A stretch of DNA of 12,238 nucleotides, taken from the NCBI GenBank assembly GCA_905236935.1, contig CAJOQL010000087.1, positions 1 through 12,238 of the forward strand. Reading direction: 5' to 3'. The DNA is from an uncultured Bacilli bacterium (GTDB lineage: Bacteria > Bacillota_I > Bacilli_A > RF39 > UBA660). The position numbers were made by a program, and so were the translations under genes. Of this stretch, positions 683-11,462 are shown one piece after another (position 1 is the first letter of the stretch; each line of letters opens with the position of its first letter). The notes beneath the pieces were generated by a model. The model was given only the letters and a program-made list of their open reading frames with translations. It was not told the origin of the DNA and did not search any database.

Positions 683-3506
683 ATTTAATAACGATACTAA
701 CAATTCTTCTTGGAACAACAATTACTTTTATTATTTCTTTATCATTAGTATATTTTTGAATATTTTCTTCATTTAAAGCTTTATTTTTAATATCTTCTTC
801 ACTGTCATTATCTAAAACACTAATTGTAGCTCGTAATTTACCATTAACCTGAACTCCTATCTTATATTCACTATCAATAGTTTTATTTTCATCATATTCT
901 GGCCAAGATGAATATACTAAGGATTCTTTATGTAAAATGCTTTCATTAAGTTCTTCCATCATATGAGGAGCAAATGGATATAATAATTTAATTAATACCT
1001 CAAATTCACTTTCTGTTATACTTTCTTCATCATAAAATGTATTTACTAATTTCATAAGTTCAGCAATAGCAGTATTAAATTTCATTGATTCAATATCCAA
1101 AGATACTTTTTTAATAGTTTTATGAATAGTAGATTCTAACTTTTTAGTAATATCCCCTTTAATTACTTTATCAGCAAGTTTTGCTACTCTATCAATAAAT
1201 CTTGATACACCTTTAATAGCATCTTCATTCCAAGGACATTCTACTCCATAATCACCCATAAATAAAATATAAGTTCTTAAAGTGTCAGCCCCATACTCTT
1301 TAATAACATCAAGTGGATCAATAACATTACCTCTTGATTTACTCATTTTTTCACCATCAGGGCCTAAAATTAAACCTTGAGCAGTTCTTTTAGCATATGG
1401 TTCTGAGCAAGGAACTACTCCTAAATCATATAAGAACTTATGCCAGAATCTTGAATAAATCATGTGTCTTGTTACATGTTCCATACCACCATTGTACCAA
1501 TCAACAGGCATCCAGTATTTTAATTTATCCATATTAGCAATTTCCTCATTATTATTTGGGTCAATATATCTTAAGAAATACCAAGATGAACCTGCCCATT
1601 GTGGCATAGTATCAGTTTCTCTTTTAGCATTTGCTCCACATTTAGGACAAGTACAATTAACAAACTCTTCTATTTTAGCAAGTGGACTTTCTCCATCAGT
1701 ACCTGGTTCAAAATTTTCGATTTTAGGAAGTTTTAAAGGTAATTCATCATAAGGAACTAACACATCTCCGCAATTATCACAATGAATTATTGGAATAGGT
1801 TCACCCCAGTATCTTTGTCTATTGAAAGCCCAATCCTTCATTTTATATTGAACACCTTTTTCACCAATACTATTTTCTTCTAAAAATGCAAGCATTTTGT
1901 CAATAGCATCTTTTTTATTATTTATTCCATTTAAGAATTCTGAATTAATCATTATTCCATCACCAGTATAAGCTCCACTACTTAATAAATTATGGATAGT
2001 TGTAATATGTAATTCATCCTTAACTTCTTCTTCAATAGTCTTTTTGTTAACCCATTCTACAATAAAGTTATTTTTTTCATCATCATCTAAAATTTGTTCT
2101 TGTTTTTCATCATTAATTAATTTAAATAATAAACCAGTACTTTCAATACTAAATGCTTTATCTTTATTATAAGCATAATAATGATGATTAATTGGTAAGA
2201 TTTCATTTATAAATTCTATATTTTTATATCCCGTTTCTTCTAAAATTTCTCTTTTAGCACATTCTAATGGTGTTTCACCATCTTTAATTGTTCCACCAAC
2301 AAATAATCTGCCACCTTTTTCTTTCCAATTAATTGTTAAATACTTATTATTTTTTTCATCCCATAAAACAGCAACAATACTTTTTTTATTTTCTTCATTT
2401 TCTCTCTTTTGACCAGTAATTTGCTCAATAACAGGAATAATATCAATACCAAACTTTTTAGCAAATTCATAATCACGATCATCATGAGCAGGAACGGCCA
2501 TAATTGCACCTGTACCATAACCCATCATTACATAATCAGAAATATAAATTGGTATTTCTTTATTATTTACTGGATTAATAGCACTTATACCTTCTATTTT
2601 AACTCCAGTTTTATCTTTATTAATTTGAGTTCTTTCAAATTCAGTTTTCTTTTGAGCAAATTCACGATATTCTTTAATTTTATCCATATTAGATATAATA
2701 CCTTCATATTTATCTATTAATGGATGTTCTGGAGCCATAACCATAAAAGTTACTCCAAACAAAGTATCTGGTCTAGTTGTATAAATTTTTAAATTTTCAT
2801 CTAAACCTTTTAATTTAAAGTTTACAAACGCACCTGTACTTTTACCAATCCAATTTTGTTGTTGTAATTTAACATTAGGTAAATAATCTACTTCTTCTAA
2901 ACCTTCTAACAACTTATCGGCATATTCAGTAATTCTTAAATACCAAACTTTTTTCTCTTTTTGAATTACATCAGAGTGACAAATATCACATTTACCACCT
3001 TGAGAGTCTTCATTAGATAAAACTACTTTACAACTAGGACAATAGTTAACATAAGCATTATCTCTAAATACAAGACCATGCTCAAACATTTTCATAAAAA
3101 TCCACTGAGTCCATTTATAATAATTTTCATCAGTTGTATCTATAGTTCTAGAAAAATCAAATGAAAATCCTACTTTTTTTAATTGATTAGTAAAATTCTT
3201 AATATTATTATCAGTAACTATTCTTGGATGTGTATTAGTTTTAATAGCATAATTTTCAGTTGGAAGACCAAAAGCATCAAATCCAATTGGAAATAAAACA
3301 TTATATCCTTCCATTCTTTTCTTTCTTGAAATAACTTCTAAACCACTGTAGGCTTTAACATGACCAACATGCATACCAGCTCCTGATGGATAAGGAAATT
3401 CTACTAAAGCGTAAAACTTCTTTTTACTAAAATCATCTTTTGCTTCAAATGCATGATTCTTTTCCCAAATATCTTGCCATTTCTTTTCAATTTCTAATAC
3501 ATTCAT
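681..3506 (-). CDS. leuS: Leucyl-tRNA synthetase with inserted Nudix domain
   Basis: Class Ia synthetase that charges tRNA-Leu with leucine in the cytosol. Of the 941 residues, the HIGH motif is HVGH at 46-49 and KMSKS is at 720-724. The first zinc knuckle has Cys156, 159, 173 and 176, and a second CxxC pair lies at 576/579 and 620/623. The CP1 editing domain is present: TTRPDT at 243-248 and VPAHDDRD at 338-345, including the conserved Asp345. The C-terminal anticodon-binding region and tail are complete. The protein is about 137 residues longer than the roughly 804-aa B. subtilis enzyme. The extra length sits at about residues 361-509, between IPVIE and AYTGDG of the editing domain, and is a Nudix domain with an intact box. 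The start at 3506 is supported by AAGAAGGA eight to nine bases upstream. It overlaps the end of the upstream membrane-protein gene by 20 bases and is controlled by the Leu T-box. Confidence 0.97.
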   Translation of the reverse strand: MNVLEIEKKWQDIWEKNHAFEAKDDFSKKKFYALVEFPYPSGAGMHVGHVKAYSGLEVISRKKRMEGYNVLFPIGFDAFGLPTENYAIKTNTHPRIVTDNNIKNFTNQLKKVGFSFDFSRTIDTTDENYYKWTQWIFMKMFEHGLVFRDNAYVNYCPSCKVVLSNEDSQGGKCDICHSDVIQKEKKVWYLRITEYADKLLEGLEEVDYLPNVKLQQQNWIGKSTGAFVNFKLKGLDENLKIYTTRPDTLFGVTFMVMAPEHPLIDKYEGIISNMDKIKEYREFAQKKTEFERTQINKDKTGVKIEGISAINPVNNKEIPIYISDYVMMGYGTGAIMAVPAHDDRDYEFAKKFGIDIIPVIEQITGQKRENEENKKSIVAVLWDEKNNKYLTINWKEKGGRLFVGGTIKDGETPLECAKREILEETGYKNIEFINEILPINHHYYAYNKDKAFSIESTGLLFKLINDEKQEQILDDDEKNNFIVEWVNKKTIEEEVKDELHITTIHNLLSSGAYTGDGIMINSEFLNGINNKKDAIDKMLAFLEENSIGEKGVQYKMKDWAFNRQRYWGEPIPIIHCDNCGDVLVPYDELPLKLPKIENFEPGTDGESPLAKIEEFVNCTCPKCGANAKRETDTMPQWAGSSWYFLRYIDPNNNEEIANMDKLKYWMPVDWYNGGMEHVTRHMIYSRFWHKFLYDLGVVPCSEPYAKRTAQGLILGPDGEKMSKSRGNVIDPLDVIKEYGADTLRTYILFMGDYGVECPWNEDAIKGVSRFIDRVAKLADKVIKGDITKKLESTIHKTIKKVSLDIESMKFNTAIAELMKLVNTFYDEESITESEFEVLIKLLYPFAPHMMEELNESILHKESLVYSSWPEYDENKTIDSEYKIGVQVNGKLRATISVLDNDSEEDIKNKALNEENIQKYTNDKEIIKVIVVPRRIVSIVIK
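1980..2426 (-). other. Nudix hydrolase domain inserted in LeuRS CP1
   Basis: Residues of about 361-509 of LeuRS. The Nudix box G-x5-E-x7-R-E-U-x-E-E-x-G-U is matched exactly at residues 405-427 (positions 2226-2294): Gly405, Glu411, Arg419, Glu420, Ile421, Glu423, Glu424, Gly426, Tyr427. All catalytic, metal-binding glutamates are kept. A beta-strand start (SIVAVLW) precedes it, and FVGG replaces the usual PGG. Sequence on both sides returns directly to normal LeuRS editing-domain sequence, so this is an in-frame internal insertion and not a fused neighbour or an assembly error. Nudix enzymes cleave nucleoside diphosphates linked to another group; the substrate here is unknown. Confidence 0.9.
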
Positions 3507-3852
3507 TATTTTTTCCTTCTTTCTTTTTCAAAATAAATCCAATTATACTATAAAATATAATAATTAAGGCCATTAGTAAACTAAATCCAGCAATTAATTG
3601 ATATGCTAAAGAAGTATCTAACATAGTGCAAAAAGTACCAGCTAAAGATATTATTAAGCTATTTACTAAAGCAAATATAATCCCTAATGCACTTGCATTC
3701 ATCTTTTTAGGGTTAAGATTAAATCTAGTTGCTAATATTCCTAGTTCTTTCATTTCATTTAATTTGTTTTTTCTTTTATTTATTAAATATATTATTAAAT
3801 TAGCAATAAATATGATTATAAAAGAAAACATGAATACAAATAAATCTTCCAT
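3487..3852 (-). CDS. Small three-helix membrane protein of the leuS operon
   Basis: A 121-residue protein that I do not recognise by name. Membrane segments are visible at about 4-25, 54-75 and 84-108. Between the first and second lies a basic cytoplasmic stretch with NKRKNK (25-30) and a FNLNPKKMN segment (44-52). The tail is charged (KKKEGK). The start is supported by AGAAAGG upstream. It is the first gene after the Leu T-box, and its TGA stop lies 20 bases inside leuS, which suggests translational coupling. The placement implies that leucine starvation raises its expression, but no leucine transport motif is visible and three helices are few for a transporter. It may be a conserved hypothetical of low-GC Firmicutes. 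Confidence 0.8.
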   Translation of the reverse strand: MEDLFVFMFSFIIIFIANLIIYLINKRKNKLNEMKELGILATRFNLNPKKMNASALGIIFALVNSLIISLAGTFCTMLDTSLAYQLIAGFSLLMALIIIFYSIIGFILKKKEGKNNECIRN

Positions 3853-6614: not shown

Positions 6615-7268
6615 TTAGGCAGCAATATACTCTTTAATTTTTTGTTTACCTTTCTGTTCTAATCTTGAAACTTTTACTTGACTTATTCCTAATAGTTTTG
6701 CAGTTTCACTTTGAGTAAAATCGTTAAAATATCTAATTTTTATAACATCTTGTTCTAAAGGTTCTAAATTTTGCATCGACTCTTCAATTAATATCTTGTC
6801 ATCATAGTTTGGATTATTTCCAATAGTATCAATTATGCTTAAATTACTATCCTCATTATTTTCATATTTAGCATCTAAACTTAACATACTAGTAGTTAAA
6901 GTAATTACCTCCGCTATTAATGATTCTTCACATTCCATATAAAGTGATAATTCCATAATAGTTGGTTCCCTATTTAAAGTATTCATAAGTTCAGATTTAG
7001 AAATTTGAATTTTCTTATATAATTGTAAATATGCTTTGCTAAGTTTAATGTCTCTACTTTTATTTACTAATTCATACATTTCTCCAAAAATATCTAAATA
7101 AGCAAAATCTTTAAATGGTGTCCCAATTTTTGGATCATATTTTCTAGCAGCTTTAATTAATCCTAAACGTCCTGCTTGATATAAATCTGATAATTCAACA
7201 TTATAAAATCTTTTAGCAATTTTAAATATTAATCCTTCATATTTTTCTAATAATTCAATTTCTTGCAT
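6615..7268 (-). CDS. sigF: RNA polymerase sporulation sigma factor, sigma-F-like
   Basis: Sigma-70 family factor of 217 residues, expected to direct early forespore transcription. Region 2 is seen as LIFKIAKRFYN and DLYQAGRLGLIKAARKYD (28-45). Region 3 includes LNREPTIMELSLYM (98-111). Region 4.2 carries the helix-turn-helix TQSETAKLLGISQVKVSRLE (185-204), close to sigma-F. Position after a SpoIIAA-like gene and before spoVAC also points to sigma-F. It is shorter than the 255-aa B. subtilis protein because the N-terminal segment is missing. The normally well-kept region 2.3-2.4 YAVPMIIGEI segment reads FAYLDIFGEM, so promoter recognition may differ. A TAGGAG site overlaps the stop of the gene before it, only about three to four bases from the ATG. 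Sigma-G is the main alternative. Confidence 0.88.
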   Translation of the reverse strand: MQEIELLEKYEGLIFKIAKRFYNVELSDLYQAGRLGLIKAARKYDPKIGTPFKDFAYLDIFGEMYELVNKSRDIKLSKAYLQLYKKIQISKSELMNTLNREPTIMELSLYMECEESLIAEVITLTTSMLSLDAKYENNEDSNLSIIDTIGNNPNYDDKILIEESMQNLEPLEQDVIKIRYFNDFTQSETAKLLGISQVKVSRLEQKGKQKIKEYIAA

Positions 7269-7276
7269 ATAATCTC

Positions 7277-7594
7277 CTATACCTTTAATAAAGTTAACGC
7301 AATAAGTTCGTTTTTAACAACCTTTATGCTATCATCAAATAAAACTTTAGTATTACAGATAATACCTTTACCACTATTTCTTTTAGTTTCATTAATTATC
7401 GTCTTTAAAGCATCTTTCCCAACTTTATCAATTAAATTGATATTATCTAAATTAAATACTAAATACTTTATGCCTTTATCATTAATGAGACTTAAGAAAT
7501 ACTTAATTAGATTTTCGTAAGTGAATCTTGTTAATTCACCTTTTAATCTTGCAAACAAAACTCCTTTACGATATTCCATATTTATCTTTAACAT
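7277..7594 (-). CDS. spoIIAA: SpoIIAA-like STAS protein lacking the phosphoserine
   Basis: STAS-domain protein (105 aa), placed where the anti-anti-sigma factor SpoIIAA normally sits. The N-terminal ARLKGELTRFTYENL (15-29) matches the SpoIIAA strand and helix. NLDNINLIDKVG (48-59) is the segment that holds the switch serine in SpoIIAA, usually MDSSG. Here it reads IDKVG, so Lys57 and Val58 replace the two serines and the protein cannot be phosphorylated there. It has a strong AAGGAGGG site and is eight bases from the sigma factor gene, with no anti-sigma kinase gene (spoIIAB) between. It may be a constitutively active antagonist, a structural leftover, or a partner of another protein. The symbol is given for position and fold; function is uncertain. 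Confidence 0.8.
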   Translation of the reverse strand: MLKINMEYRKGVLFARLKGELTRFTYENLIKYFLSLINDKGIKYLVFNLDNINLIDKVGKDALKTIINETKRNSGKGIICNTKVLFDDSIKVVKNELIALTLLKV

Positions 7595-7636: not shown

Positions 7637-9202
7637 TTAAACCTCTTCGACAAAAGATGATTTATTCTTTCGGAATAATGTAAAGAATTTTACACATATT
7701 AATAATATAAGAATATAAATTTTATAATTAATTTTGAGTTTATCTGTTTTTTCAATTTGTTTTGATGAATTACTTGCTAATAATTTTTTATAATCATTAA
7801 CACTATTTTCTATATTGGTGTTTAAGGATTCAATATTATCTGCTAGTACTTTTGTTTTTTCTATAGATTCTATAACATTAATAGGATAAAAATCCTTTTC
7901 AATAATAATTTCATTAGTATTTTCGAAAGTGCTTTCTTCATCACTTATATCATTAATTATATAATCAGAGTTTATTAAAAAATTATCTTCTTTATAAATG
8001 TCCTCTACTATATCAAATCCTTCCTTTTGATTATCTAAATTTATATTAGCTGCTGTTGCATTATTATATTGTTTATTAGTTTGATTTTTAAGTTCTTCAG
8101 TATTTTCTGGGGCATCATTTATTTTTTTAGGCAATAGTTTTATTTTTTTAAAAAACTTACAATTTTTAGTCTTAATAATTAATAATATTTCTTCTTCATT
8201 GATATTTTTAAATTCTAAATCAATTTTCTCTTTTGGTATTGAGGTAGAAATAATAATATCATTTATTTCATCTATACTATTAATTTCATCTTTAATTTCG
8301 ATAAAATCTCTTTCATAATAATCGTATATTTCTTTTTTATCATTATAATCATGTTTATAGTTTTCTAAAGGAATTTCAGTATAAATATTCAAATATTTTT
8401 TACCTAATTTATAATACTTATATAAGGTAACTGTTTTTTGATAATAATTTATGGAATTTAAACTATCATAAAAATTATTATTTACCCAGTACAAATTAGT
8501 TAAAAGCTTTTGAAAATCATCAGCAAAAATAAAATTAATAGTAAAGTTTTCTATTTTATTGTAGCGATAAAAAGTATTTAAATAATAAAGTTTTGGATTT
8601 ATAGAACTATAATAATTAGTGTCATAAATATCAAGCATAAATCTTATTTCATTTAGGTTATTTTCTTCAAATGTTAAATCAATACTTAACTTATCTAAAT
8701 TATACTTTTTGCCCAAATCTATTACTATATTACTTCTAGAATTTAACTTACTTATAAAATCATAGTTAGATTGATAAATTTTATGAGAAACTATCTCTTT
8801 ATTATAATAACATTTAATACTTTTTAATATTGCATCAGTAGTAAAAGACCTTAAAACAATATATCTTGCACTTTGATAATTTCTTATCTTTAAAGTACTA
8901 TATTCATAATCATTAGAATTAAATGGAACTTTAGCATATTTAGTTTTAGTTATAGTTTCTAATGGAGAAGAAATAGTTAAATAAGATGGTGCTTTATCTT
9001 TTTCATAATATCCATTATTAATTATAATCTCTTCATAATTGTTATAACCAATCTTTTTTTCTATTTTTTTAAGTTCATCTTTAACGTATTCTTCTTTATA
9101 TTCTGTATTATTTTCACTTATTAAAATATAATCTGTATAAAACGTTTCTGCATATATATTAAAAGGAATTAAACATATAATAGTTATAATAATATTTTTC
9201 AT
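7637..9202 (-). CDS. Exported membrane-anchored protein heading the spoIIA-like operon
   Basis: A 521-residue protein that I do not recognise. Residues 1-18 are a signal peptide, with likely cleavage after Ala18 (IYA/ET). Residues 491-510 are a single membrane helix followed by RKNK, so most of the protein would lie outside the membrane with a short cytoplasmic tail. Residues of about 110-195 (ARYIVLR, IVIDLGKKYNLDKLSI, IRFMLDIYD) resemble a discoidin/F5-8 type C galactose-binding-like beta sandwich. Residues 253-300 are tyrosine-rich (YKYYKLGKKY). Residues 360-490 are Asn/Glu-rich and probably unstructured or coiled. A perfect AGGAGGT site precedes the ATG. It is 42 bases upstream of the STAS gene and in the same direction, so it probably belongs to the sporulation operon. 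Confidence 0.85.
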   Translation of the reverse strand: MKNIIITIICLIPFNIYAETFYTDYILISENNTEYKEEYVKDELKKIEKKIGYNNYEEIIINNGYYEKDKAPSYLTISSPLETITKTKYAKVPFNSNDYEYSTLKIRNYQSARYIVLRSFTTDAILKSIKCYYNKEIVSHKIYQSNYDFISKLNSRSNIVIDLGKKYNLDKLSIDLTFEENNLNEIRFMLDIYDTNYYSSINPKLYYLNTFYRYNKIENFTINFIFADDFQKLLTNLYWVNNNFYDSLNSINYYQKTVTLYKYYKLGKKYLNIYTEIPLENYKHDYNDKKEIYDYYERDFIEIKDEINSIDEINDIIISTSIPKEKIDLEFKNINEEEILLIIKTKNCKFFKKIKLLPKKINDAPENTEELKNQTNKQYNNATAANINLDNQKEGFDIVEDIYKEDNFLINSDYIINDISDEESTFENTNEIIIEKDFYPINVIESIEKTKVLADNIESLNTNIENSVNDYKKLLASNSSKQIEKTDKLKINYKIYILILLICVKFFTLFRKNKSSFVEEV

Positions 9203-9642
9203 TTTTCACCTCCTACTATTTATATTAACGATTTAATATCTATTTCCTTTTTTATTTTTTTATTTTGTTTATAACTTTAATATTTTGTTAATAAGTAAGA
9301 ATTATTTGTGGAAAACCATTAAAATTTTCAAAATTTTATTATTTAAAAATGATAAATTTGAAATTTTTTCTAAAAAGCTTTTAAAAATTAACAAATTTAT
9401 ATTATTGAATGATTTGCATTATCAAAAAAATATACTACTTTTTCTTTTTTCAAGATGCTTTAAACCGATTTAAGACAAACCAATTTTTAAAATTTATTAA
9501 TATTTGATATTTCAAAATATTTTTTAACTATGATTAAAAATTAGAATTCAAACGCAATATTTTTTAAAAGCACTATAGTTTTAATTGATACTTACATCTT
9601 ACTAGTAATAGTTTTTTATTTATTAATTATTTTCTCACATAA
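9203..9642. other. AT-rich intergenic stretch without a supported gene
   Basis: About 440 bases between the sporulation operon and the terminator of the surface-protein gene. It is extremely AT-rich, with only short inverted repeats such as AATATTT...AAATATT near 9500-9525. A 62-codon plus-strand frame starts with TTG and has no ribosome-binding site. No RNA gene or repeat array is recognisable. It must hold the promoter of the minus-strand operon. Confidence 0.5.
9222..9250 (-). promoter_or_regulatory. Possible sigma-H-type promoter of sporulation operon
   Basis: On the minus strand AAAGGAAAT (9242-9250) fits the sigma-H -35 consensus RnAGGAwWW completely. An 11-base spacer leads to CGTTAATAT (9222-9230), which fits RnnGAATWW only in part (AATAT kept, G and R missing). 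B. subtilis spoIIA is sigma-H-dependent, which makes this plausible. In an AT-rich region chance matches are likely, and the leader would be very short. Confidence 0.25.
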
Positions 9643-9696
9643 AAAAGAAATCAATGTTTTTTCAAATATCTTTGATAATACTTTGATTTCTTTTAC
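9638..9696 (-). terminator. Terminator after surface protein gene
   Basis: Long hairpin: arms 9643-9654 and 9683-9694 pair over 12 bases (AAAAGAAATCAA with TTGATTTCTTTT), plus a nested TCAAA/TTTGA hairpin, so nearly the whole structure is paired. On the minus strand a run of six T follows. The poly-A side would also give T on the plus strand, so it may act in both directions. Confidence 0.75.
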
Positions 9697-9737
9697 TTGT
9701 CTTCTTTATTATAAATTTACATTTTAACTATTTATTA

Positions 9738-11462
9738 TTATATTTTCTTTAAATAAAACTTATTTTTACTTCCAAGATATCCAATTAAAGATAAACTTCC
9801 AATTATAGTTAATATTATAAACGTATCTTTTAATCCTGTTTTAGGATTTTGAGGAGGTTCAGTAGTTGATGGTGCTGTAACATCTATATCATAACTTTCA
9901 ATATATGTTTCTCCATTATAGTTTAAAGTTGCTGTTAATTTTGTTTTACCTACTGATAAAAATTTAACAATTACTGTAGCGTCTGATGTAAAACTATCAT
10001 ATTCTATTTTGGTTATTTTAGCAATATTTTCATCTTCTATTTTAAATTGTATATTTTCTTTTTCAGAACTTGGAATATCCAGCAATTTTATTCTAAATTC
10101 ATTTTCAGTATTTATTATCATAGGCAATTCTGGCACATTATGACTAAACATAATCCTATTATTTACGTTTATATTATAACTATCAGTATATGTTTCTCCA
10201 TTATAGTTTAAAGTTGCTATTAATTTGGTTTTACCAACTGATAAATATTTTAGAGTAATATTAATCCATGATGGATCATCATCATTTTCTATTTTGGTTA
10301 TTTTGGCAATATTTTCATCTTCTATTTTAAATTCTACATTATCTCTTTCAGAATTTGGAATATTTATCAATTTTATTCTATATTGTTCTTCTGTATTTAC
10401 AAGTAAACTATATTCTAATTCATTATACCAAAATTTAATTTGTAATTCATTATTTTTAACTTCAAAATTGTACGTAGATGTAATTAATTTTCCTTCGTAT
10501 ACTTCATATTTTGCAGTAATAGTTGCATTTCCTTCTCCAATTGCATTAACTAAACCATCATTATCTACATAAGCAATAGTTTCATCACTACTTGACCATA
10601 TTACATCATTTGTTACATCTTGACGAACTCGTGAGCCTCTAATAGGAACATCAGTAGCTATTAATTGAATTTTTTCTCCTACTTTAACACTTGATGGTAG
10701 GTCATTATAATCCCTTGCAGATAGTTCTAAATAATCGTTAAATTCTAAAACATCTAAATCATAACTATCAGTATATCTATTTCCGTCTAAATTTAAAGTT
10801 GCTGTTAATTTAGTTTTGCCAACTGATAAGTATTTAACAGTAACAATAATTGTTGATGAATTTTCATCATATTCTATTTTGGTTATTTTAGCAATATCTT
10901 CATTTTCTATTTTAAATCGAACATTTTCATTATATGACATTTCTAAGAATCTTAGTTCAAATTTATCTTCACTATTTAAAAGCATAGAAGGTCCTGGTTC
11001 TAGTATTTGCGGAACAATACCTATATTAGACCCAATTGAAACATCATTGGAATTTACTTTTATTTCAAAATTAGCCGTTTCATTATTGTACTTAGCAGTT
11101 ATAGTTGATGTTCCTACAGATAAACCTGTAACTTTTCCTGTATTATCAACTGTTGCAACTTCTGTATCACTACTTGTCCAAGTTACATTTTCTAAATCAG
11201 TTTCATCAACAAACGTTCCACATTCTATATCAGAATCAATAGGACATATATCATTTCTATGTATAATTATGGCATATAATTGTAATGTTTCATTTACTCT
11301 TATATTAGTAGCCTCCCCATATTTCATGTTTTCACCTATTGTATAATCATTTGAAGTAATTCCTAGTTCTGGCTCTGTATTTGCTAATGATTTTATATTA
11401 AATATAAAAAACGATATGATAAAAATAATAAATAAAGATATAATTTTATTTTTTATAAACAT
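9738..11462 (-). CDS. Cell-wall-anchored Ig-like repeat protein (NPKTG)
   Basis: Exported surface protein of 574 residues. A signal peptide covers about 1-28 (basic KNK, hydrophobic stretch, cleavage near SLA/NTE). Two BIG2-type bacterial Ig-like domains lie at about 41-136 and 246-335, with the typical VTWTSSDTEVATVD and GTSTITAKY patterns. Three copies of a related module (about 158-238, 352-433, 446-528) share FKIEDENIAKITKIE and SVGKTKLTATLN. The C-terminus has a proline/threonine-rich spacer, NPKTG (539-543), a hydrophobic segment and a basic end (KKI), which is a sortase sorting signal of the NPxTG type. Cys73 and Cys81 in the first domain could form a disulfide. Likely role is adhesion or surface display; the ligand is unknown. 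The AAGGAG site is about 13 bases from the ATG, which is long. No convincing promoter was found. Confidence 0.9.
   Translation of the reverse strand: MFIKNKIISLFIIFIISFFIFNIKSLANTEPELGITSNDYTIGENMKYGEATNIRVNETLQLYAIIIHRNDICPIDSDIECGTFVDETDLENVTWTSSDTEVATVDNTGKVTGLSVGTSTITAKYNNETANFEIKVNSNDVSIGSNIGIVPQILEPGPSMLLNSEDKFELRFLEMSYNENVRFKIENEDIAKITKIEYDENSSTIIVTVKYLSVGKTKLTATLNLDGNRYTDSYDLDVLEFNDYLELSARDYNDLPSSVKVGEKIQLIATDVPIRGSRVRQDVTNDVIWSSSDETIAYVDNDGLVNAIGEGNATITAKYEVYEGKLITSTYNFEVKNNELQIKFWYNELEYSLLVNTEEQYRIKLINIPNSERDNVEFKIEDENIAKITKIENDDDPSWINITLKYLSVGKTKLIATLNYNGETYTDSYNINVNNRIMFSHNVPELPMIINTENEFRIKLLDIPSSEKENIQFKIEDENIAKITKIEYDSFTSDATVIVKFLSVGKTKLTATLNYNGETYIESYDIDVTAPSTTEPPQNPKTGLKDTFIILTIIGSLSLIGYLGSKNKFYLKKI
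9879..10127 (-). repeat. Ig-like module, copy 3
   Basis: Third copy of the 80-residue module in the surface protein (residues about 446-528). It shares near-identical core sequence with copy 2, including a 32-base identical stretch (9902-9933 here, 10187-10218 in copy 2). Confidence 0.8.
10164..10409 (-). repeat. Ig-like module, copy 2
   Basis: Second copy of the module (residues about 352-433), directly followed by copy 3 without a BIG2 domain between them. It is closer to copy 3 than to copy 1, as expected from a recent duplication. Confidence 0.8.
10749..10991 (-). repeat. Ig-like module, copy 1
   Basis: First and most diverged copy of the module (residues about 158-238). It lies between the two BIG2 domains and shares the KITKIEYDE and SVGKTKLTATLN segments with the others. 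Confidence 0.75.

Follow-up and report, generated by a model that had tools for sequence, protein, structure and literature searches.

A probable Nudix hydrolase domain lodged in the editing domain of a bacterial leucyl-tRNA synthetase appears to be exchanged, stacked and released among relatives

Why should a leucyl-tRNA synthetase (LeuRS) carry a Nudix hydrolase domain within the very domain that it uses for proofreading? The question is raised by a stretch of 12,238 nucleotides from an uncultured Bacilli bacterium (contig CAJOQL010000087.1 of assembly GCA_905236935.1; hereafter the window), on whose minus strand the leuS gene forms a single unbroken reading frame of 941 amino acids (Table 1). 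A first-pass annotation, made from the letters of the window, had placed a Nudix domain at 1980-2426 (residues 361-509), in the CP1 editing domain of this LeuRS, and our analysis bears that placement out. The Pfam NUDIX profile (PF00293) matches residues 376-491, between two LeuRS parts, with an E value of 1.1e-11 and 45.3 bits against a cut-off of 21.1, and an exact Nudix box, GTIKDGETPLECAKREILEETGY, begins at residue 405 with its catalytic glutamates present. The host enzyme is intact, as the annotation had also proposed: it scores 944.4 bits against the bacterial LeuRS profile leuS_bact (TIGR00396; curated cut-off 548.4), Pfam recognizes the catalytic and anticodon-binding domains besides the editing domain (tRNA-synt_1_2, residues 217-372) and NUDIX, and the HIGH, KMSKS, T-rich and VPxHDxRD motifs are all found in the translation and alignment. 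Because the alignment with Thermus thermophilus LeuRS stops at residue 362 and restarts at residue 512, we take the cassette to be about residues 362-514; the insert-less relative L127 has a loop of ~11 residues, GGDISKEAFIE, at this position. The G+C content is 23.7% in the insert, 27.7% in the leuS gene and 24.4% in the window. On a slight balance of probability, we read the insert as an active and exchangeable Nudix pyrophosphohydrolase in the CP1 loop, which would act on a LeuRS-linked nucleotide substrate and confer a conditional benefit.

Structure prediction, one of the checks proposed with the annotation, returned a full Nudix fold for the isolated insert (AlphaFold predicted local distance difference test score, 92), which is also ordered in the model of the full-length protein. 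A Foldseek search of the PDB with the insert model gave 453 matches at E≤0.001, of which the 50 listed are Nudix-type proteins by description; the top TM-scores among them (0.75/0.79) belong to the Aquifex diadenosine tetraphosphate (Ap4A) hydrolase 3i7u. The core of the box, RExxEExG, is kept in 164 of 166 single inserts (97 of 98 of type A and 67 of 68 of type B, the two families described below), and both boxes are kept in all six proteins with a double insert. Further, the ratio of nonsynonymous to synonymous substitution (dN/dS) in the insert ranges from 0.04 to 0.56 and is mostly below 0.3 (40 closest of 699 pairs, with duplicates among these), and, as judged from these ratios, the insert is under purifying selection. 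Together with the predicted fold and the retained catalytic residues, this suggests that the insert is likely to be an active hydrolase, as had been anticipated.

The arrangement recurs in many other LeuRS, the search for which had been another of the proposed checks. When residues 366-508 alone served as the protein query, 658 of 1117 candidates matched at E≤1e-3, and Pfam assigns LeuRS as well as NUDIX domains to each of the best 120 of the 658. Relatives are encoded on 171 stretches of a collection in which each species is represented by one genome; among the best 80 of these, the Nudix domain lies within a LeuRS frame in 79 (some clipped by contig ends), and in the other, L052, it is a separate gene. 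The relatives come from uncultured Bacilli, Clostridia, Tenericutes, Firmicutes and similar. Outside CP1, the window LeuRS is 87-94% identical to three metagenome proteins and 64% identical to the lineage that comes next in the tree. In the order of genome G001 (uncultured Bacilli), 63 of 241 sampled genomes carry an insert of the window's type (type A), each in a frame of 782-966 amino acids, and every type A match at E≤1e-20 in these genomes lies within a LeuRS frame; LeuRS itself is found at E≤1e-100 in 231 of the 241, with a length of about 760-850 amino acids among the rows listed. The type A insert is present in 10 of 296 genomes of the class sample, all ten of which are also in the order sample, and in 1 of 205 of the phylum sample, namely G001 itself, so that neither sample holds a case outside the order. 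P0204, a type A Nudix protein of 138 amino acids encoded on a contig of 23 kb, may be free-standing or may come from a frameshifted LeuRS gene. We also note a second type of LeuRS body, marked by KMGKR in place of KMSKS (e.g. P0072 and L213 12754-15567), in 20 of the 98 proteins of type A and in 16 of the 29 that have no insert (L052 included).

Two Nudix families occupy the same site. The 1101-amino-acid relative P0015 contains two tandem Nudix domains, the first of which defines type B. Of 155 candidates in a search with this domain, 82 proteins matched, and each of them also has LeuRS Pfam domains. LeuRS proteins with a single type B insert are mostly about 942-954 amino acids long, and those with both types (P0015, P0121, P0122, P0123, P0125 and P0127) have 1097-1105 amino acids; in the doubles that were read, the usual loop is taken by B, and A follows a few residues later, past a HINS segment. 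The two types are homologous (hhalign probability 99.1, E value 6.8e-19, 29% identity) and have different X-loops, that of type A having His-441, His-442, Tyr-443, Asn-447 and Lys-448 invariant in 98 of 98 inserts. Six LeuRS of the order sample carry type B (E value 4.6e-62 or better). The weaker type B matches in this sample are mostly A inserts, together with free-standing genes and B-like Nudix open reading frames (ORFs) of about 166-169 amino acids in genomes G507 and G433 (interrupted by a stop in G433). In a class sample searched with type B, 1 of 203 genomes has a match at E≤1e-25 (G172), which is itself a type A LeuRS.

When the insert state (A, B, double, none or split) is compared with the LeuRS body, that is, the protein outside CP1, 36 disjoint pairs have a body identity of at least 80% (80-96%) and yet differ in state: 26 pairs are A/B, 4 A/none, 3 double/B, 1 A/double, 1 B/none and 1 B/split. 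For instance, L023 (A) and L127 (none) share 95.9% of their body residues and 95.5% of those in the N-terminal half of CP1; when their genes are aligned by codon, nucleotide identity is 85-93% in blocks of 40 codons, except for the one that contains the cassette (80%). L077 (A) and P0196 (B) are 92.2% identical in the body. A tree of 97 rows, in the thinning of which insert state played no part, needs at least 31 changes of state, and its well-supported branches alone force 17 changes for A, 13 for B and 8 for none. This tree replaces an earlier one, in which neither A nor B clustered and which was superseded because it had been thinned within states. Among 57 type A proteins, pairwise identities of the N- and C-terminal LeuRS parts correlate well (Spearman 0.83), whereas those of the insert and of CP1 follow the body poorly (0.19 and 0.25, respectively; insert against CP1, 0.31). 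Further, a relative of the small hydrophobic protein encoded upstream of leuS is found within three genes upstream in 89 of 105 loci, immediately upstream in 87 (LeuRS was present in 105 of the 112 loci examined), and it is kept in 64 of 76 A, 5 of 6 B and 17 of 20 insert-less loci. The leuS locus is thus stable, because the same neighbor precedes it in most loci whatever the insert state, and the leuS gene is not mobile. We conclude that the alignments and the tree show the insert state to have changed repeatedly, through intragenic recombination, while the locus itself stayed stable. Whereas synthetase genes are often transferred as entire genes, here a whole enzyme domain moves in and out of the proofreading domain of a synthetase, between similar alleles at a fixed locus.

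The same data bring up another account, namely that a general house-cleaning Nudix enzyme hitch-hikes in LeuRS, that types A and B are interchangeable and that they are exchanged as a side effect of the frequent recombination that the editing domain undergoes in this clade. CP1 does recombine, as its correlation with the body (0.25) indicates, and so does the case of L052, in which the LeuRS (8534-10963) is 90% identical to P0149 in the body and only 49% in the N-terminal half of CP1. However, swaps also occur where this half is unchanged, as in L023 and L127, the type A matches at E≤1e-20 in the order sample lie without exception in LeuRS frames, and free copies of the domain retain a remnant of CP1, and we regard hitch-hiking as decidedly unlikely. 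The L052 LeuRS has TTCIETIYG instead of TTRxDTLFG, and it is apparently the entire editing domain that was exchanged in this protein.

The free copies show that the domain is occasionally released from LeuRS. In L052 (genome G009), a gene of 284-302 amino acids joins an intact type A Nudix domain to a reduced CP1 whose editing motifs have decayed, and the adjoining LeuRS, of 809 amino acids, has a different CP1 and lacks the insert. In a sample of the family of G009, 29 of 145 genomes match the L052 protein, which forms a short frame of its own only in G009, with one frame of 575 amino acids besides. Type B counterparts of 276-278 amino acids occur in G473 (L188), G405, G510, G511 and G563, the last four being 83-92% identical to L188, and Pfam finds CP1 and NUDIX pieces in the L188 and L052 proteins. 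The three free-standing proteins that were read (L052, G473 and G405) have an intact Nudix box and decayed editing motifs. Between the G405 and G473 copies, dN is 0.041 and dS 0.398, and the free CP1-Nudix gene is therefore under selection. All six genomes with a free module have insert-less LeuRS frames of 809-816 amino acids, adjacent to the module only in L052. Such mini-CP1-Nudix proteins would be derivatives of an editing domain with a new job, and a domain that relatives swap, lose and separate suggests a useful one. These copies also bear on the idea that the insert is catalytically idle and serves as a spacer or as a module that positions tRNA: domains inserted in synthetases can be structural, and one member of each type (L075 and P0173) has a broken box, but 164 of the 166 single inserts still have the core residues, and three free copies whose editing motifs have decayed still have the box, which makes this highly improbable.

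The surroundings of the free copies hint at nucleotide or polyphosphate chemistry. In L211 (355-4642), L212 and L287, a cytidylate-kinase-like gene is followed by genes for a CxxxCxxC protein (only 218 amino acids in L212), a phosphoribosyltransferase-like protein and a CYTH protein, and the CP1-Nudix gene ends the string. The second and third of these proteins have no Pfam match, and we presume from their motifs that they are radical-SAM-like and phosphoribosyltransferase-like, respectively. The string was not found in the remaining two type B cases, L288 and L289; in G507, a CYTH gene directly follows leuS.

What would such an enzyme hydrolyze? On the reading we favor, the cassette would cleave a nucleoside-diphosphate-linked compound made by, or bound to, LeuRS, and candidate substrates would be a dinucleoside polyphosphate by-product, a damaged nucleotide, a nucleotide inhibitor or an RNA end. 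An additional editing function, which the annotation had put forward as an alternative, may also be considered; Nudix sites are not known to cleave aminoacyl esters normally. The annotation had proposed that the insert removes Ap4A, a dinucleotide side product of LeuRS, in a self-contained pair that makes and destroys it. According to passages of PMC5389931, the X-loop is tied to the choice of substrate in Nudix enzymes, and a Tyr there goes with diadenosine polyphosphates (ApnA). Such a Tyr, expected about 17 residues past the box in ApnA hydrolases, stands at +16 in all 98 inserts of type A; of the 68 type B inserts, 67 are readable at +18, where 59 have Tyr and 8 have Phe. This is a correlate of ApnA hydrolysis and not proof of it. 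The fold matches listed, with the Aquifex Ap4A hydrolase at their head, also include the diadenosine hexaphosphate (Ap6A) hydrolase of T. thermophilus and Escherichia coli RppH with Ap4A. The usual Ap4A hydrolase, YqeK (TIGR00488), is rare in the order, with 18 of 241 genomes over the cut-off (one with internal stops), and complementarity would be expected if the insert replaced it. However, the A insert occurs in 10 of the 18 YqeK genomes versus 53 of the 223 others (Fisher p = 0.009), which is opposite in direction to exclusion and only indicative, since the genomes are related and many are drafts, and most genomes have neither. Further, the X-loops of A and B differ, and a patchy distribution would be odd for an enzyme that removes a by-product of every LeuRS. 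We conclude that hydrolysis of Ap4A is compatible with the X-loop and the fold but is not matched by complementarity with YqeK, and that a stable make-and-destroy pair does not agree with an insert that is gained, lost, exchanged and sometimes encoded separately; overall, we consider the Ap4A explanation rather unlikely.

An RNA end is a further candidate, in that the Nudix domain might act, like RppH or Dcp2, on the 5' end of tRNA-Leu or another RNA, with CP1 placing it near the acceptor end. The closest solved sequences are Dcp2 decapping enzymes (4.3e-06), profiles of the RNA pyrophosphohydrolases YtkD and RppH match weakly (2.9e-06 and 0.0006), and RppH is among the fold matches. Further, in G507 (L213 5010-6815), a 166-amino-acid B-like free Nudix gene comes immediately after a FemAB gene (Pfam 9e-110) and a similar ORF, and a LeuRS with a type A insert is encoded some 6 kb away; FemAB enzymes use aminoacyl-tRNA. 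Against this, the scores are weak, generic to Nudix proteins and under the curated NCBIfam cut-offs (26.9 bits versus 154.4 for YtkD and 19.2 versus 116 for RppH), and mature tRNA has a 5' monophosphate; an RNA-directed role thus seems quite improbable to us.

We return to the reading of an active cassette with a conditional benefit, in which activity, substrate class and benefit are what we infer. The benefit would exist in some settings only, which would explain how the cassette can be gained and lost while the synthetic and editing functions persist. Several observations weigh against this reading. L075 and P0173 each lack a catalytic glutamate. Of the 231 LeuRS-bearing genomes of the order, 162 have no A or B match in LeuRS, and the Nudix function is therefore dispensable. 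The conditional benefit is deduced from patchiness, which neutral exchange could equally produce. The states are more clustered on the tree than in 200 of 200 shuffles, and nearest neighbors differ in state in only 6 of 69 cases at 90-97% body identity, compared with 27 of 77 at 85-90% and 18 of 26 at 80-85%; exchange is therefore frequent on an evolutionary time scale, between species, and not within species. Lastly, the rule that the domain is present either in cis or in trans comes from six genomes, and the pattern would be expected in about 0.1 of draws if 70% of genomes are insert-less, so that this complementarity is statistically weak because most genomes are insert-less and five of the six belong to one lineage.

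More tentatively, we consider it possible, if unlikely, that the CP1 loop is a cassette port, into which Nudix domains are plugged, swapped, stacked (B then A), removed or supplied in trans, in an arms race with nucleotide-type inhibitors or toxins of LeuRS or tRNA. If this is true, an essential synthetase would carry an exchangeable detoxification module as part of its structure. Pressure of this kind has a precedent in AgnB2, a self-immunity LeuRS against agrocin 84; according to passages of PMC5059758, LeuRS is here the target of a nucleotide-type natural toxin, and resistance comes from altered binding, with no added hydrolase described there, unlike the arrangement in the window. More generally, a Nudix domain that acts on a product or ligand of LeuRS would mean control of a by-product (Ap4A) or detoxification in cis in a synthetase, and the natural pairs of alleles with and without the cassette open both ideas to direct test.

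Compared with known systems, the window protein resembles bacterial LeuRS (TIGR00396) in being full-length, over the cut-off and equipped with catalytic and editing motifs, and differs by a Nudix cassette of ~150 residues in the CP1 loop, which some relatives have on a free mini-CP1. The insert shares its predicted fold, exact box and X-loop Tyr with Nudix hydrolases of PF00293 (3i7u, Ap6A hydrolase, RppH and many tied subfamilies), but is only 8-25% identical to the solved members listed and sits in LeuRS or on a CP1 remnant. By its name, the family ileS_w_GNAT (NF040702) is similar in joining a class I synthetase, isoleucyl-tRNA synthetase, to an accessory small-molecule enzyme domain; both the synthetase and the enzyme class are different. 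The annotation had left it in doubt whether a Nudix domain in LeuRS had been described, and no account of it was found in the open-license literature as judged by titles and the beginnings of abstracts, although it may be described elsewhere. The term "tRNA synthetase" is absent from PMC5389931, and the matching passages of PMC4598790 are unrelated to this arrangement. The combination of LeuRS and NUDIX is already visible in precomputed Pfam annotations; the exchange of the insert between relatives is the new point.

Table 1. Positions in the window of leuS, its domains and motifs, and the adjoining gene
Feature	Position	Strand	Basis
leuS, leucyl-tRNA synthetase with inserted Nudix domain, 941 aa	681..3506	-	Translation, Pfam, leuS_bact, Thermus LeuRS alignment
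CP1 editing domain, hosts the insertion, residues about 222-552	1851..2843	-	Pfam tRNA-synt_1_2 217-372; Thermus LeuRS alignment
Nudix cassette type A, residues about 362-514, replaces the short loop of insert-less LeuRS	1965..2423	-	Alignments
Pfam NUDIX match, residues 376-491	2034..2381	-	Pfam
Nudix box GX5EX7REUXEEXGU, residues 405-427	2226..2294	-	Exact motif match
X-loop NHHYYAYNK, residues 440-448, putative specificity loop	2163..2189	-	Alignment of type A inserts
T-rich editing motif TTRPDTLFG, residues 243-251, intact	2754..2780	-	Translation, alignment
Editing motif VPAHDDRD, residues 338-345, intact	2472..2495	-	Translation, alignment
HIGH motif as HVGH, residues 46-49	3360..3371	-	Translation
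KMSKS motif, residues 720-724	1335..1349	-	Translation
Gene for small hydrophobic protein, 121 aa, overlaps the leuS start	3487..3852	-	ORF; no Pfam match

Elsewhere in the window, a gene for a STAS-domain protein (SpoIIAA-like; 7277-7594) is directly followed by a sigma factor gene (6615-7268), and genes of the SpoVAC/SpoVAEB and SpoVAD families adjoin the pair. In Bacillus subtilis, the SpoIIAB gene lies between the SpoIIAA and sigma factor genes; no such anti-sigma factor gene separates the two in the window (6615-7594). Similar STAS and sigma factor genes stand in the same order in L288 (14923-15947).

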